Shown here in pieces: positions 17,401-29,400 of a DNA stretch of 64,000 nt; position 1 is the stretch's first letter; every line of letters begins with the position of its first letter. Location of the stretch: the NCBI GenBank assembly GCA_030562195.1, contig JAUJPP010000003.1:13423398-13487397 (forward strand). Reading direction: 5' to 3'. Below the pieces are notes generated by a model that searched no databases, had not been told where the DNA came from, and saw only the letters and a list, made by a program, of their open reading frames with translations. The translations under genes and the position numbers were made by a program. The stretch is from Nipponacmea schrenckii. Taxonomy: Eukaryota > Mollusca > Gastropoda > Lottiidae.

Positions 17401-20400
17401 AAAATATAGACCGTAAGTCTTCTAATCTAAGACAATATGATGGATACCATACCAGAAACTGAATGATTGGTATATGATTTACTCATCTTTAAACTGGATT
17501 AAGGTAAAAAATCACACAATGAGGTGAGTACAGGAAAATAGACAAAAATCGCCATATCTGTGGAAAATATTACTCACAACAGTAACTTGATTTGATAAAT
17601 TGCAAGTAAACAGTCACTTAGTGATTTGTGAGTGCTTACTAATCTGAAGATAAAATGATAGAAACAGTCACCAAGATAAGCTATTTGTGATTTCTTACTT
17701 ATTTAAGGACAAGATAGTTGACAAGTCACCAGGATTAGTGATTTTTGAGTACTTACTTATCTGAGGACAAGATGAGGGACAACAGTCTCCAGGCTTAGTT
17801 ATTGGTGATTTACAAGGTAAATCCCTAATGTCACACTGGACTCTGGAACATTTAACCAGTGTATTATCACAAGAACAATTCAAACAGGAATTATAGGTAG
17901 GTGTAAAACTGGTTCTATGTTTATATAATTTTCCTTCATAATCACACTCTAAAAACAGATGATAAAACTACTAAAATCAGTATTTGGTAGACAAGTTATT
18001 AGATCTACATATTGTAAATACTGAACCACCAACAGAAATACAGGATTAAGCTCATTCTTGAATGTGACACTGATCAGATCTGTAAAAAGTGGTCAGGGGT
18101 TTGGAATAGATATCAGAAAGGAAGTCTTTACTTCCAGAAAATGTCCCTCATTGCACAATGTGTTGAGTAAACTAAAGTATGAGCAAACAAGTAGAAAGTA
18201 AAACATATTTCTTATAACTCAGCACACTAATCAATTAACTTGCCATGGTTTTTGTGCAAACATGATAATAATCTTGTACACAACACTTACCATTGTCACA
18301 AGATGGACAGCACTGTCCTGGTGGTGTAACAGGATTCCTACAAGATAAAGGAGCACATTCTGGTGCTTGACATTCCACATTTCCTTGGTAACACTTACAC
18401 ACCGTACATTCATCAACTTTAAACCTTTGATTGTTCTGATACAGATCACCTTGATAAAAACATCCTGTAATACACATATATTAACTTCAATTATTATCTG
18501 GAAATTCACAAATCTATGCTTCTGGTTAATTTCACTTATATTAAATTATAAGGCACAAAACAACCTTTCACACAAAACATACCATTCAAAAATTGAATCA
18601 CAATTAGAGCTTTATACAGAAAAAAATCCACCTATAGATGTAACATTCTTATATTTTAAGAAAAAGAAATAACATTTACCATCACAAACAGGACAACAAG
18701 AGCCTTCTGGTGTATAAGGATGAGCACAGTTTGGTATATCACATTCTATCTGTACACAACTTGTTTCACCACTCTACAAAATAATTTTATATTTAACATC
18801 ATTTTGGTTTTGATGGTTGTTATTTTATTAATGTTTACTAATGGTACATGTATATTTAAAGCACAAAATATAGATATCAATAGATCAACTATCATCATGT
18901 TCTTATAAGTTAAGGCCAAGCTAACCTGACAAATACAGGACTGACATGGTGAAGGGTTCCACTGCTGACCATCAGCATATGGTCCACAATCTAAACAAAC
19001 TGGACAGCATTCATCTGGTGGTAATATTTCTGTCTGACAATTTTCTATCGGTTGACAAGGTATAGCTCGACAGGTAACATTTCCTCTCATACAATCACAA
19101 ACAGAACACTTATCTGTTTCTAGTCTAAATCTAGTCCCAGTTGGTACAATTTTACCATCAAAATCACATCCTGCTGTAAATAGTATCATCATAATCTGGT
19201 AGAGTAAACTTTATATTCCTACATGGTCTATTTACTAGTGATATTTTAACAAGAGATTTAAATAACAAGTATATAACAATGCTTTAATACCAGAATTTGT
19301 CAAAATAACACAACATATTTACCAAATTTTGTTCAGGAACATTTTTGTATTTTGTAGTAAAGGATAATTGAGTTATTGAAAAAACATAATTAAATGACAC
19401 TATCCATACCATCACAAGAAGGACAACATTGATCCTCTAGTCTTATAGGATGTTGGCAATATATTGGTGGACATATAACTTCTTCACATAGTATCATACC
19501 ATTCTATAATAAACAAATTCAAAACAGTTTGGTCAAGTATCATTCTAAAGTAGACAAACTTAAGTAAATATTTTACCAACAAATAAACTCAAATACAAGC
19601 ATTTATAATAATAAAACTTTAAAAAAATATCATACAATCCTATAATAAACAAACTTATAATAAATGAACCCAAATATTATCATACCATATTATGATAAAC
19701 AAACTTAAATATCAAACCATTCTATAATAAATAAATAAATTTATAAAAACGTATCAACAACATTAATACAACTTTAACTTTAAAAAAAGTATATAATAAA
19801 AGATTGAAGTTTTACCTCACATCTACAATTATCACATACAGAATTCTTCCATACTTCTCGTTCATATTTCTCTAAACCTTCATATGTTGTACAACCTACA
19901 ATATAGTCATATAACTTTAAGCAGGCATGTTCTTCTATCCTGTTTCTATATATAAATTTCTATTGAAACATAAATCATATGAGAAATGACAAAAAAAAAA
20001 TCCCTAAGCTGGTGTCTGGTGTAGGGTAAGGTGCCAGATCATTGATACCATGTATGGGTCGTCACATGGTGCAAATATGATTCTAGATAATTCTGCACTA
20101 CACACAGTACCTTGTCTATTCCCACCTGAGGACTGATCTGATGTTTACAGTTGAAGATGCTAATTTGCAGAGAAGAGCAGATGTGCTTTCTTTTTTGAAT
20201 GCTTGATTGAGCAAAAAAAAAAACAGTTACCTGTACAGTTTAACAATTGTCCAGTGATACCATCGTACCATTCATGATAACAACTATCACAATTACTGGT
20301 TCTACATACAGCTGTAGGATGTCCTGATAATAAAAATATATTTACAACTATCACAATTACTGGTTCTAAATACAGCTGTAGGATCTCCTGATAATAAAAT

Positions 20401-26400: not shown

Positions 26401-29400
26401 TTCTAAATGCCCATCAATAGAATAACAGTAGATAAAACACCACATAGCCTCAAGGTTATTCCTGACATACATATTTATCAAAACCTTATTTAAATTGATA
26501 TTTAAAAAGTCCACACAATAAAATCATACTTCATAACTAAGATTTTAATAGTTATACCAGCAGTGTATTTCTACCTACCATCTTGTTTAAATCCATATCT
26601 ATTAAACCTCTGAATATCAATATCAGTTACATCATAACCAAACTGATTTAATCTATTCTGATTGTCTATTACTTCTGGACTTTGATCACCTCGCTGTACT
26701 CCGGGTCTTTCAGTTGGTCTGCTTACAGTCTCATTACAGACATGACCTTTAGATGGTGGTTTATAGGTCACACATAGTTCATCAGAATCTAGTACTTCAG
26801 ACGGTAAAACATTGAATGGTATTAATGGAATACTACCAAATACAGCAGGAAATTTGAACTTATTATCTTGACGTTGTTGCCAGGTCCAATATAACATGTC
26901 AATATAAGCATGAATTGAATAAAATACTGGATCATAAGGAGCAGATGTGGTTGCCATGTCACCACCTATATAGTTATGAATATAGGCAGCATATGTCTCA
27001 AGACATAAACTCATTTCACTGTAATCATCTGAAGCAAGAGCTAGTGCCAATTCTATAGCTGAAGGTAGTTTAACACTGGTATTAAAATTTCTCATAATAC
27101 AGGGCTTCCAGGGAGTTGGTCCACCAAATGGATTATCTGTTACACAACCATTGTCTACTCCATTACCACCAAAATAATCCGTCTGCCAGATCATAGCTTG
27201 ACTAAAAGCACCAACATCAGTAGAGAAATCTATATATGGTAGTACAACATCACAGTCAATTTCTTGTAATCTCTGTTCCATTCGTCTCAGAAACAACCGA
27301 TGCCAAGGTAGATAAAACTGTCCACCATTAGAATGCATGCTGTGTTTCATGTATAAATCACGGAAATCATCCCAAATGCTAATATCACCAAAATTCTTTA
27401 ACTGTAAAACAGCATTCTGAAATCTTGCAAATTCTTTTCTGCTCATATCTCTCATTTCTTTTCTTACTGTCATCTTCTCACATCTACAATCAAATCAAAC
27501 CTGTTAAACAAACTTTCTGATAAATTTAAAGTTACGATAATTTCCAGAAATGCAAAAGCTTGTTTCATTGAGAGGTTATATTCTACAATCAGAAAGTTTT
27601 TTTTACTAATTGCAAGATCTAAATTTGACAAACAAGCTGGACATTTTTCAAATGATATTCATAATCACCATGTAACCAGAAATATCATGTGATAAAACTT
27701 GGACAATCAAAGTTACAGCCCTTCCCTGAATTAAGCATGTGTGACTAACCTGCAAGTAATTGCTCCAGTGTTCAAACATGTACAAGACTGACATCCCAAT
27801 CTTAAATCATCTCCAGCATTCATTGTCTCTAAACATCCTTTATCTTTCAAACAACCAGCCTCTTCACAAGTCATACCTGGTACAAAACTTATTACTTCTG
27901 CTTCTACTTCATTATCTGTATTCTGACGGTGTAATCTTTGACAGGATATTAGGTCCATAGACTGAAATATTACAATAGGTTCTAATCTAGTGGAGAAGAG
28001 TCTTATTTAGAGATAGGGTGCTACATACATATAGTAAAGTACAGATTATTTCGTTTTCAGTTCTGTACAATTGAGATTACTTGTGTTTTTGCAACGGAGG
28101 AGCACTTCAATGACAACAAAGGAGTATCTTATGTACAATATAATGTGATCAAAAAGTGCAAAAATAAGATTATTGTTTCATTTGTTATTCAAATTAACTA
28201 CAAGTTTAGACATAATTTACTGCTGATTAAAACAATAAAATAACTACCTGACAGAATGTTTGGACAGTTTGTAAGTCTTGTAATATATCTGGTACTATAA
28301 TAGTATAAGTTCTATAACAGCAGGCACCTTTCATAGTAATACCATTACACTCTTCTTCTGATCCAAAATTGTTAGCATTTCCACCACAACCTAGAGGACA
28401 AATAGATAAATACTTAAAAAACTGCAGTGGGAAAGTCACAACAACATGAAACTAACTGAATAAGATAAATGATTGCCCCATCTATTCCTTGATGAGGTGC
28501 CATGCTCAATGCTCCATGCTCAAATGGCAGATCTGCTAATGGAAATAAATTTGGTGAACTAATTAAATTTCTGTTCTTTTCTCATACTTGATTTCCAATT
28601 TCCTAAAGTTTTCAAGAAACTTTGCAATGAGATTCAAAGTAACAATCAGACATGTTTACGGTCATCATCTCATAAAAACAGACAAATTAAAGAAAATGGA
28701 GGTAGCTCCATGCAGACACATGTTGAAGATGAGTATAAGATCTACCTGTAAAATTAAATGGTAAGCAATGTTGATTATGTTTATCGTAATAGTATCGAGG
28801 TACTAATTCCTCACAGGTACCACTATCACGAGGCAAGGCACATGGGTTCTGTCGATTCTGACAATTAGTTCCATCATAAGGTGATTGACACTGACAAGTA
28901 AAATCTCCTCCTACTCCACCAGATATATCAACATCAATACATTCTCCATTATTAGAACACGGATTGGTCAAACATGGTGCTGAAAGATATCATCATTAGT
29001 GTTGGTAGATAGAATATGATCAACAATAGGTTCCTCTGTAACATATAGCAAATAAATCTCAATATCAATTACACATGTCAATTAAAGCATAAAAATTGTA
29101 ATGTGTATTTCTAATTACACTTCAAAAATTTTGTATTATAACTTACTAGCACAGCTCGGAATATCTAATCTTCTGGAGCATGAAGGTCTTCCCCCCTATA
29201 ATAGAACAATACAACAGAAATTTTCAAATACTTTCCTAAAAGTAAACCATCATTAAAGGAAGTTTAAGTAAGTTTTATTTACAAGAGTACTTTTTATTCA
29301 AATAATTTCAAACAGTCCAGGAACACATTTTTGCTATTTTTTGAGTAAAATATGTTTTTAATGTTCAGAAAACAGAATAAATAACCACACTTACCAAACA

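Follow-up and report, generated by a model that had tools for sequence, protein, structure and literature searches.

In the 64,000-nucleotide stretch of Nipponacmea schrenckii DNA analyzed here (the window), a minus-strand gene apparently codes for a very large secreted protein related to kielin/KCP, with two pseudo-tyrosinase modules. KCP itself has been studied for its modulation of BMP and TGF-beta signaling. From sequence comparisons, we consider it probable that this gene represents kielin/KCP in molluscs, that its architecture, apparently, is the ancestral one for bilaterians, and that the pseudo-tyrosinase modules work as scaffold or partner-binding domains, as we propose. The product would be a secreted matrix protein in which an N-terminal TSPN domain plus coiled coil and a C-terminal VWC array with VWD flank two copies of a module with the order EGF, Kunitz, half-VWC, pseudo-tyrosinase, GYD repeats, and small Cys module.

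The gene model, made from the window DNA with a simple splice and codon-usage script, is a single open reading frame of 4,094 aa (the original prediction gave 4,095) across 54 exons, with one terminal stop. Exon 1 (36416..36542; all features are on the minus strand), with the start codon and a candidate signal peptide, has a hydrophobic start, joins in frame, and was the sole candidate between 31 and 50 kb to pass the ATG/hydrophobic/phase-1 donor filter. The donor of the VWD exon at 2922 was corrected with orthologues as a guide, which raised the number of continuous junctions from 52 to 53 of 53. All 53 are continuous in the orthologues from Haliotis (aligned across 4,063 residues at 53.8% identity) and Littorina (4,052 residues at 50.8%). 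Given so simple a script, adjacent genes could in principle have been fused by exon chaining, but this is scarcely credible, because the tyrosinase domain and the VWC array are joined in the gene models of eight other mollusc genera (with both tyrosinase copies in seven and VWD in five), and two of these orthologues are continuous over every junction. A separate, nested tyrosinase gene was rejected as very unlikely for the same end-to-end continuity, so the claim of a single kielin/KCP-type protein stands. It should be noted that the mollusc and vertebrate protein models used for comparison are automatic predictions. The locus was met a second time at a distance of 29,626,336 bp, but a gene duplication was rejected, since the contig is written twice (59,252,672 = 2 x 29,626,336, with 10,000 compared bases identical).

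The original prediction had proposed a domain search of the translation and a search of other spiralians. The former, a Pfam scan made on five pieces of the spliced model, matched EGF, Kunitz, tyrosinase, VWC, VWD, C8, and TIL; the latter found tyrosinase-VWC proteins in the gene models of the eight mollusc genera. At the N terminus, the predicted coiled coil (29737..29864; aligned with orthologues) and VWC (two exons, 29147..29526; Pfam 1.6e-4, below the cut-off) are supported by a vertebrate CC-VWC1 profile, which scores 8.4e-20 over residues 205-287 in the 4,061-residue numbering and whose source set includes two tyrosinase-bearing fish (P0025 and P0143). The predicted TSPN domain (laminin-G-like; main exon, 30620..31113) is less firm: it is weak in Pfam (Laminin_G_3, E 0.061) and rests on alignment to the Haliotis, Littorina, Mya, and Argopecten orthologues. 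A TSPN profile from 14 vertebrate sequences matched one of eight real targets (Littorina, 9.3e-10), five of which contain the TSPN region, and the window was not matched.

At the other end, the long VWC array that had been predicted is present (4918..19895), with a somewhat lower count than the 31 or so proposed: 29 Pfam stretches (4 + 20 + 5, in three pieces), plus the N-terminal VWC below the cut-off. The predicted C-terminal VWD/C8/TIL is confirmed, with VWD (Pfam 7.2e-39; GDPH motif at residue 3768) and the start of C8 at 2922..4382, and C8 (7.3e-21), TIL (9e-08), and the stop codon at 2204..2769. A vertebrate KCP profile of the VWD-C8-TIL region matches the window at 4.6e-138, in a comparison set without BMPER or other VWC-VWD proteins. 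This profile and CC-VWC1 match the mollusc proteins at the corresponding ends, and neither matched any of eight shuffled sequences.

Between these flanks, the parts named in the original prediction at 20231..28979 are all present, by Pfam, alignment, and repeat count. Module 1 comprises EGF and Kunitz domains (two exons, 28248..28979; Pfam 9.7e-08 and 1.3e-17), a linker and half-VWC aligned with orthologues (27750..27961), the tyrosinase-like domain T1 with the first GYD repeats (26579..27483), GYD repeats and a following segment (two exons, 25573..26360; alignment, repeat count), and a small Cys module (24918..25163), detected by alignment and by a local profile that includes this very sequence. 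Module 2 comprises EGF and Kunitz (two exons, 24026..24765; Pfam 1.5e-06 and 5.2e-18), GYD repeats (two exons, 23408..23776; alignment, repeat count), one exon with half-VWC, the tyrosinase-like domain T2, GYD repeats, and a helical tail (21395..23194), and a small Cys module (20231..21182; exons 21182-21088 and 20323-20231). The last is supported by the local profile and an in-frame join, and the same join occurs in Elysia protein P0017, which continues into VWC. Both tandem copies thus exist but are not identical, as only module 2 has a GYD stretch before the half-VWC. The motif G[YF][DNSG] occurs 43 times, whereas 500 shuffles gave 6.6 on average and never more than 14; of the 42 spacings, 29 are exactly five. 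In the predicted model of T2, GYD repeats form short strands about every five residues (block pLDDT about 54-87).

The domain scan covered 64 chosen proteins, and some of their sequences had also gone into the local profiles for TSPN, Kunitz, small-Cys, and tyrosinase. Whole-length hmmscan of P0123 and P0124 gave no score for Kunitz or EGF, although the sequences align there. The first Kunitz domain lacks its last cysteine in all eight of the mollusc sequences aligned. The P1 residues in the window are Glu and Asn, and Lys or Arg is found at P1 in none of the 18 domains from nine proteins (0/9 first, 0/9 second Kunitz); of three vertebrate Kunitz domains checked, that of the shark has Lys. Trypsin-type inhibition by the window domains was rejected because their P1 residues are not basic.

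T1 and T2 match the Pfam tyrosinase model at 2.4e-24 and 3.9e-19, and NCBIfam MelC2 at 1.2e-29 and 2.8e-22, both far below the cut-off of that model. The type-3 copper protein fold is present in the central domain, with structure matches to PDB haemocyanins and Streptomyces tyrosinase (Foldseek 1.8e-09 for the predicted model of T1, pLDDT 58.6). Neither domain has all six conserved copper-ligand histidines. T1 retains the third CuA and the second and third CuB histidines; the first CuB histidine is absent from all nine sequences and the first CuA is unmatched. T2 has lost the second CuB histidine in 34 and the third in 40 of 41 rows (the fragment P0034_255_298 was dropped from the counts), and in the window its three anchored positions are occupied by N, Q, and M. 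An active canonical tyrosinase was rejected because of these losses. A tree was built from 27 of the 51 tyrosinase rows; it omits most of the unnamed ones (three were retained), those shorter than 200 aa, Elysia, and six of the fish proteins. In it, Ptychodera sits both in the T1 clade (100/100) and in the T2 group, and the nearest sequences are from Aplysia (T1, 64%) and Littorina (T2, 61%).

The original prediction suggested coupling to a cross-linked matrix of shell, periostracum, or adhesive. In its enzymatic version, which we regard as quite improbable, the block would have phenol oxidase activity and use it to cross-link its own Tyr-rich GYD repeats into such a hardened matrix, with the VWC domains as ligand or matrix binders. 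Tyr-rich repeats do directly follow both tyrosinase-like domains, five T1 histidines are kept in eight or nine of nine sequences, and Tuphoxin, an ascidian alpha-type putative phenol oxidase, is reported to be secreted into the tunic matrix (PMC9395347). An expression module of oyster larvae is also reported to contain a kielin-chordin protein together with Kunitz-type inhibitors (PMC11813985), and for sea stars, five kielin/chordin-like proteins are listed in a skeletal proteome (PMC5460417) and KCP-like VWC repeats in an adhesive protein (PMC9382459). However, the copper sites are broken, the block also occurs in a hemichordate, shark, and bony fishes, and a keyword search of the main text of two shell proteomes (PMC3374290, PMC6003135) found no mention of VWC or chordin. 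For these reasons, coupling to a cross-linked matrix is less favored.

Another reading, which we find fairly unlikely, takes T1 as a specialized metal site (one copper or zinc on a five-histidine set) in a metal-dependent BMP modulator, with T2 in another, non-canonical role. The histidines concerned (532, 535, 546, 654, and 676, numbered as in the 4,061-residue model) are conserved in 9, 8, 9, 9, and 8 of nine sequences, from molluscs to the hemichordate. Against this, the spacing of 532 and 535 is unlike canonical CuA, the pLDDT of the T1 model is only 58.6, and T1 was not seen in the vertebrate sequences examined. T2 also strongly keeps histidines away from canonical places (1442 in 41/41 rows, 1502 in 37/41); therefore, a conserved histidine alone is no proof of a metal site.

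The preferred reading, of a kielin/KCP counterpart with non-enzymatic modules, draws on the distribution of the block. In the computed vertebrate models, it lies between KCP-type flanks. In a pair of sharks, the TSPN linker of Rhincodon KCP is joined directly to the small Cys module, whereas Chiloscyllium P0019 carries coiled coil-VWC-EGF-Kunitz-GYD-tyrosinase-GYD between the same two flanks (identity of 78 of 91 residues upstream and 96% over 78 downstream). In a pair of cods, the tyrosinase form of Boreogadus and Gadus KCP share 89% identity across the first 370 residues and diverge after VWC1. The hemichordate protein stops within the GYD repeats that follow T2 and therefore does not reveal whether the block is joined to the VWC array. 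A tyrosinase domain was found in none of 41 other KCP-type vertebrate proteins, a set that covers only proteins up to about 2,130 aa, in which full-length forms could not show up. Matches from P0035 on extend over some one to two fifths of the query, include no tyrosinase domain, and were taken as GYD repeat similarity. The presence of the same block in kielin-type proteins of sharks and fish suggests an ancient component of kielin that has been overlooked; by these comparisons, it appears to predate the protostome-deuterostome split rather than to be a mollusc novelty.

Mechanistically, we infer that the protein is secreted, that TSPN and coiled coil would oligomerize it and retain it in the matrix, that the VWC array would bind BMP/TGF-beta ligands as in KCP, and that the pseudo-tyrosinase modules may be non-enzymatic folded scaffold or partner-binding domains. 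A broader history, which we offer tentatively as a little short of an even chance, is that kielin/KCP, already present before protostomes and deuterostomes separated, started out as a giant matrix protein whose two pseudo-tyrosinase modules had come from an alpha-type tyrosinase, and that vertebrates retain one of these modules within the KCP gene. In this history, teleosts would seem to make from it a short product of its own, which spans TSPN to the small Cys module, lacks the BMP-binding array, and closes with a conserved Trp-stop; one locus would therefore give a ligand-binding form and a matrix form, which could compete. The KCP known today may then have been shortened from an older protein, and, if so, an alpha-type tyrosinase domain survived in hemichordates and in chordates outside the urochordates as a pseudo-enzyme inside a signaling protein. 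What does a tyrosinase fold that lacks the normal copper site do beside BMP-binding VWC domains, and do fish obtain two products from a single KCP gene?

Crossveinless-2/BMPER and Chordin share VWC domains with the window protein; to our knowledge, they have neither the TSPN-coiled coil start nor a tyrosinase block. They have five or four VWC domains, and CV2 binds BMP by Clip and the SD1 half of VWC1 (PMC2944808). Tuphoxin is alike in that, as a secreted matrix protein from a deuterostome, it has EGF adjoining a tyrosinase domain of the alpha type, but it has TSP1, and the domains reported for it include neither VWC nor VWD (PMC9395347). T1 and T2 resemble alpha-subclass type-3 copper proteins (bacterial MelC2, mollusc haemocyanin) in fold and sequence, but their copper ligands are lost or rearranged and they are embedded in a matrix protein. 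A 2013 survey reports the alpha subclass as absent from hemichordates and chordates, yet with urochordate members (PMC3658974), whereas T1/T2-type domains occur in a hemichordate and in chordates as well.

Proteins with the same architecture are already in databases, as uncharacterized, hypothetical, or (Pinctada) kielin/chordin-like, and among the literature matches listed we found no description of it. The original claim that no BMP modulator with tyrosinase-like domains had been described holds for those matches, with such database entries as its qualification. Among the nearest known systems is vertebrate kielin/KCP, which shares with the window the coiled coil, the first VWC, a long VWC array, VWD with GDPH, and perhaps TSPN. 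The window has the features by which we recognize this family: a candidate signal peptide (hydrophobic start), coiled coil and first VWC, long VWC array, and VWD-C8-TIL. Published KCP is described with 18 cysteine-rich repeats and a VWD, and that description names neither a tyrosinase nor an EGF or Kunitz domain (PMC10315795), whereas the window protein has about 29 VWC domains and two modules.

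A search with the full-length protein encoded on the minus strand matched eight proteins, 2,490 to 4,169 aa long and all molluscan (Littorina, Haliotis, Pinctada, Dreissena, Mya, Aplysia, Argopecten, and Nucella). One source names the Pinctada entry kielin/chordin-like; otherwise the database names are uncharacterized or hypothetical. The original prediction placed two EGF-Kunitz-pseudotyrosinase-Tyr-repeat modules inside one kielin/chordin-like protein, and tyrosinase and VWC domains are indeed joined in all eight. Both tyrosinase copies (T1 and T2, of modules 1 and 2) occur in seven, and Nucella has one; VWD is present in 5/8. 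Over the aligned stretch, which begins with TSPN and ends where T2 begins, molluscs share one domain order. The Haliotis protein (53.8% identity over 4,063 residues) and the Littorina protein (50.8% over 4,052) are each continuous across 53 of 53 exon junctions. The figure is 49 of 53 for Argopecten and, with the N terminus absent from the model, 44 of 53 for Aplysia. Judged from these predicted proteins, the tyrosinase block (EGF, Kunitz, half-VWC, tyrosinase-like domain, Tyr-rich GYD repeats, and small Cys module) and the VWC array very probably belong to one gene, not two.

The gene model was obtained by chaining minus-strand exons down to 2.2 kb with a splice-and-codon-usage script. From this chain, two microexons that came from repeats were removed, as was an uncertain opening part; one acceptor was shifted to 11942 (based on the VWC pattern and splice score), a donor was changed to 2922 because orthologues carry ten extra residues there, and the signal-peptide exon was placed at 36542-36416 (minus strand). 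The final model has 54 exons and 4,094 residues with a single terminal stop, and GT and AG at 53/53 introns. The predicted length of 4,095 residues agrees with this, as do the predicted end points of the modules, 28979 being the start of the first EGF exon and 20231 the end of the second small Cys exon. Three minisatellites, at 9575-10018 (unit ~38 bp), 16527-16954 (~34 bp), and 20280-20938 (~64 bp), adjoin or run into VWC or Cys-module exons on the acceptor side. The start of exon 20323-20231 lies within the 64-bp unit, and acceptor-like copies therefore recur in the intron. Open frames at 39290-39601 (minus strand) and 61473-61745 (plus strand) resemble what we take to be the C terminus of a reverse transcriptase from a non-LTR retrotransposon, bearing a Cys-His cluster. 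The contig of 59,252,672 bp looks like one 29,626,336-bp sequence present two times over; an identical second copy of 10,000 window bases was found, and the Kunitz matches repeat at a distance of 29,626,336 bp.

Beyond molluscs and unnamed sequences, the best 120 of 199 matches to a module query included one hemichordate, Ptychodera flava, in which both copies are present, one shark (Chiloscyllium), and ten bony fishes. Within these 120, matches from P0035 on (in our numbering of matched proteins) carry no tyrosinase domain; these seem to reflect GYD-like repeats, which recur in a wide range of unrelated proteins (bacterial, metagenomic, and viral-type; mostly 35-50% identity, ~23% of query length) and may be a single structural type of repeat that arose by convergence. 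In a tyrosinase-domain tree built from 27 of 51 rows, T1 of eight molluscs (window included) forms a clade with Ptychodera (support 100/100), and the vertebrate domains group with T2, beside Ptychodera T2 (87/87). From this placement, the T1/T2 duplication most likely predates the protostome-deuterostome split. Among the vertebrate proteins found, T2 is the sole type of tyrosinase-like domain. In Ptychodera, the protein aligns in the mollusc order from the coiled coil onward and terminates in repeats after T2, short of any VWC array.

Proteins of up to about 2,130 aa were covered with Metynnis residues 30-420 (TSPN to EGF) as query. The 44 proteins comprised Metynnis itself, 41 of KCP (kielin/chordin-like protein) type, one tyrosinase-bearing cod (Boreogadus, P0143), and one unrelated Crumbs. 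None of the 41 in this size range has a tyrosinase or Kunitz match; in these models the block may be skipped, lost, or merely omitted. The small Cys module occurs in one of them, Rhincodon, where it follows the TSPN linker and precedes the VWC array. Chiloscyllium has both of these Rhincodon flanks (78/91 residues identical upstream, 96% of 78 downstream) with the tyrosinase block between them. The Boreogadus tyrosinase form is 89% identical to Gadus KCP over 370 residues, diverging after VWC1; its identity falls to 67% with Merluccius and about 40-52% with five others, which fits one gene across more distant species. The characins Metynnis and Astyanax share 78% over TSPN. Together, the shark, cod, and characin pairs point to block and KCP being one gene. 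Vertebrate-derived profiles also match the mollusc proteins at corresponding places, the TSPN profile in Littorina only. Seven of 12 vertebrate tyrosinase-bearing models (P0026, P0027, P0028, P0029, P0030, P0033, and P0143) end in Cys-x-x-Trp just past the small Cys module, which suggests a real short KCP product of teleosts; the remaining five end differently.

Copper-ligand positions were anchored by alignment to Streptomyces tyrosinase and haemocyanins. In T1, the third CuA, second CuB, and third CuB histidines are present (the last in 8/9 rows), the first CuB histidine is lost in 9/9, and the first CuA position is without a match in the alignment. T1 has conserved histidines at 532 (9/9 rows), 535 (8/9), 546 (9/9), 654 (9/9), and 676 (8/9), in the numbering of a 4,061-residue model; full-model positions are 43 higher. 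Window T2 has Asn, Gln, and Met at its three anchored positions; across T2 rows, the third CuA histidine is found in 27/40, the second CuB in 7/41, and the third CuB in 1/41, with other conserved histidines elsewhere (1442 in 41/41, 1502 in 37/41). Given these losses and changes, T1 is unlikely, and T2 very unlikely, to have canonical activity; T1 might retain some metal site. A basic P1 residue was found in 0 of 18 Kunitz domains from nine proteins; among three vertebrate Kunitz domains, the shark one has Lys at P1. The GDPH motif, which is cleaved in related VWD proteins, occurs in 38 of 49 proteins scanned, all 38 having a VWD match.

Kielin and KCP are already known, and the Kielin family itself is old, because a chordin-like molecule from a placozoan reportedly clusters with vertebrate Kielin (PMC11226491). 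The tyrosinase-block proteins of molluscs, hemichordate, and several fishes are unnamed database entries. No description of the architecture with the block appears among the literature matches listed (most subscription papers fall outside that search), and PMC11813985 lists kielin and tyrosinase as separate items. According to a 2013 survey, hemichordates and chordates lack the alpha subclass, urochordate haemocyanins being members (PMC3658974). MelC2 is the best-scoring NCBIfam model for the Ptychodera and fish domains, and the related domains of the window match haemocyanins as well as tyrosinases of bacteria; the Ptychodera and fish domains would amend what the survey states, as relics without the canonical site.

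The protein may serve in shell or adhesive, as KCP-like VWC proteins are reported from a sea-star skeletal proteome (five entries; PMC5460417) and a sea-star adhesive (PMC9382459). However, the block is present too in hemichordate, shark, and fish, and a keyword search of the main text of two shell-proteome papers found no mention of VWC or chordin. In the working that we consider most likely, TSPN and the coiled coil would provide matrix anchoring and oligomers, and VWC domains would bind ligand on the model of KCP and CV2. KCP is described as having 18 cysteine-rich repeats and VWD and as enhancing BMP-2 effects (PMC10315795); in CV2, BMP is bound by Clip and the SD1 half of VWC1 (PMC2944808). 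The half-VWC preceding each tyrosinase-like domain is about equal in size to CV2 SD1, and the module might therefore present a ligand- or partner-binding face.
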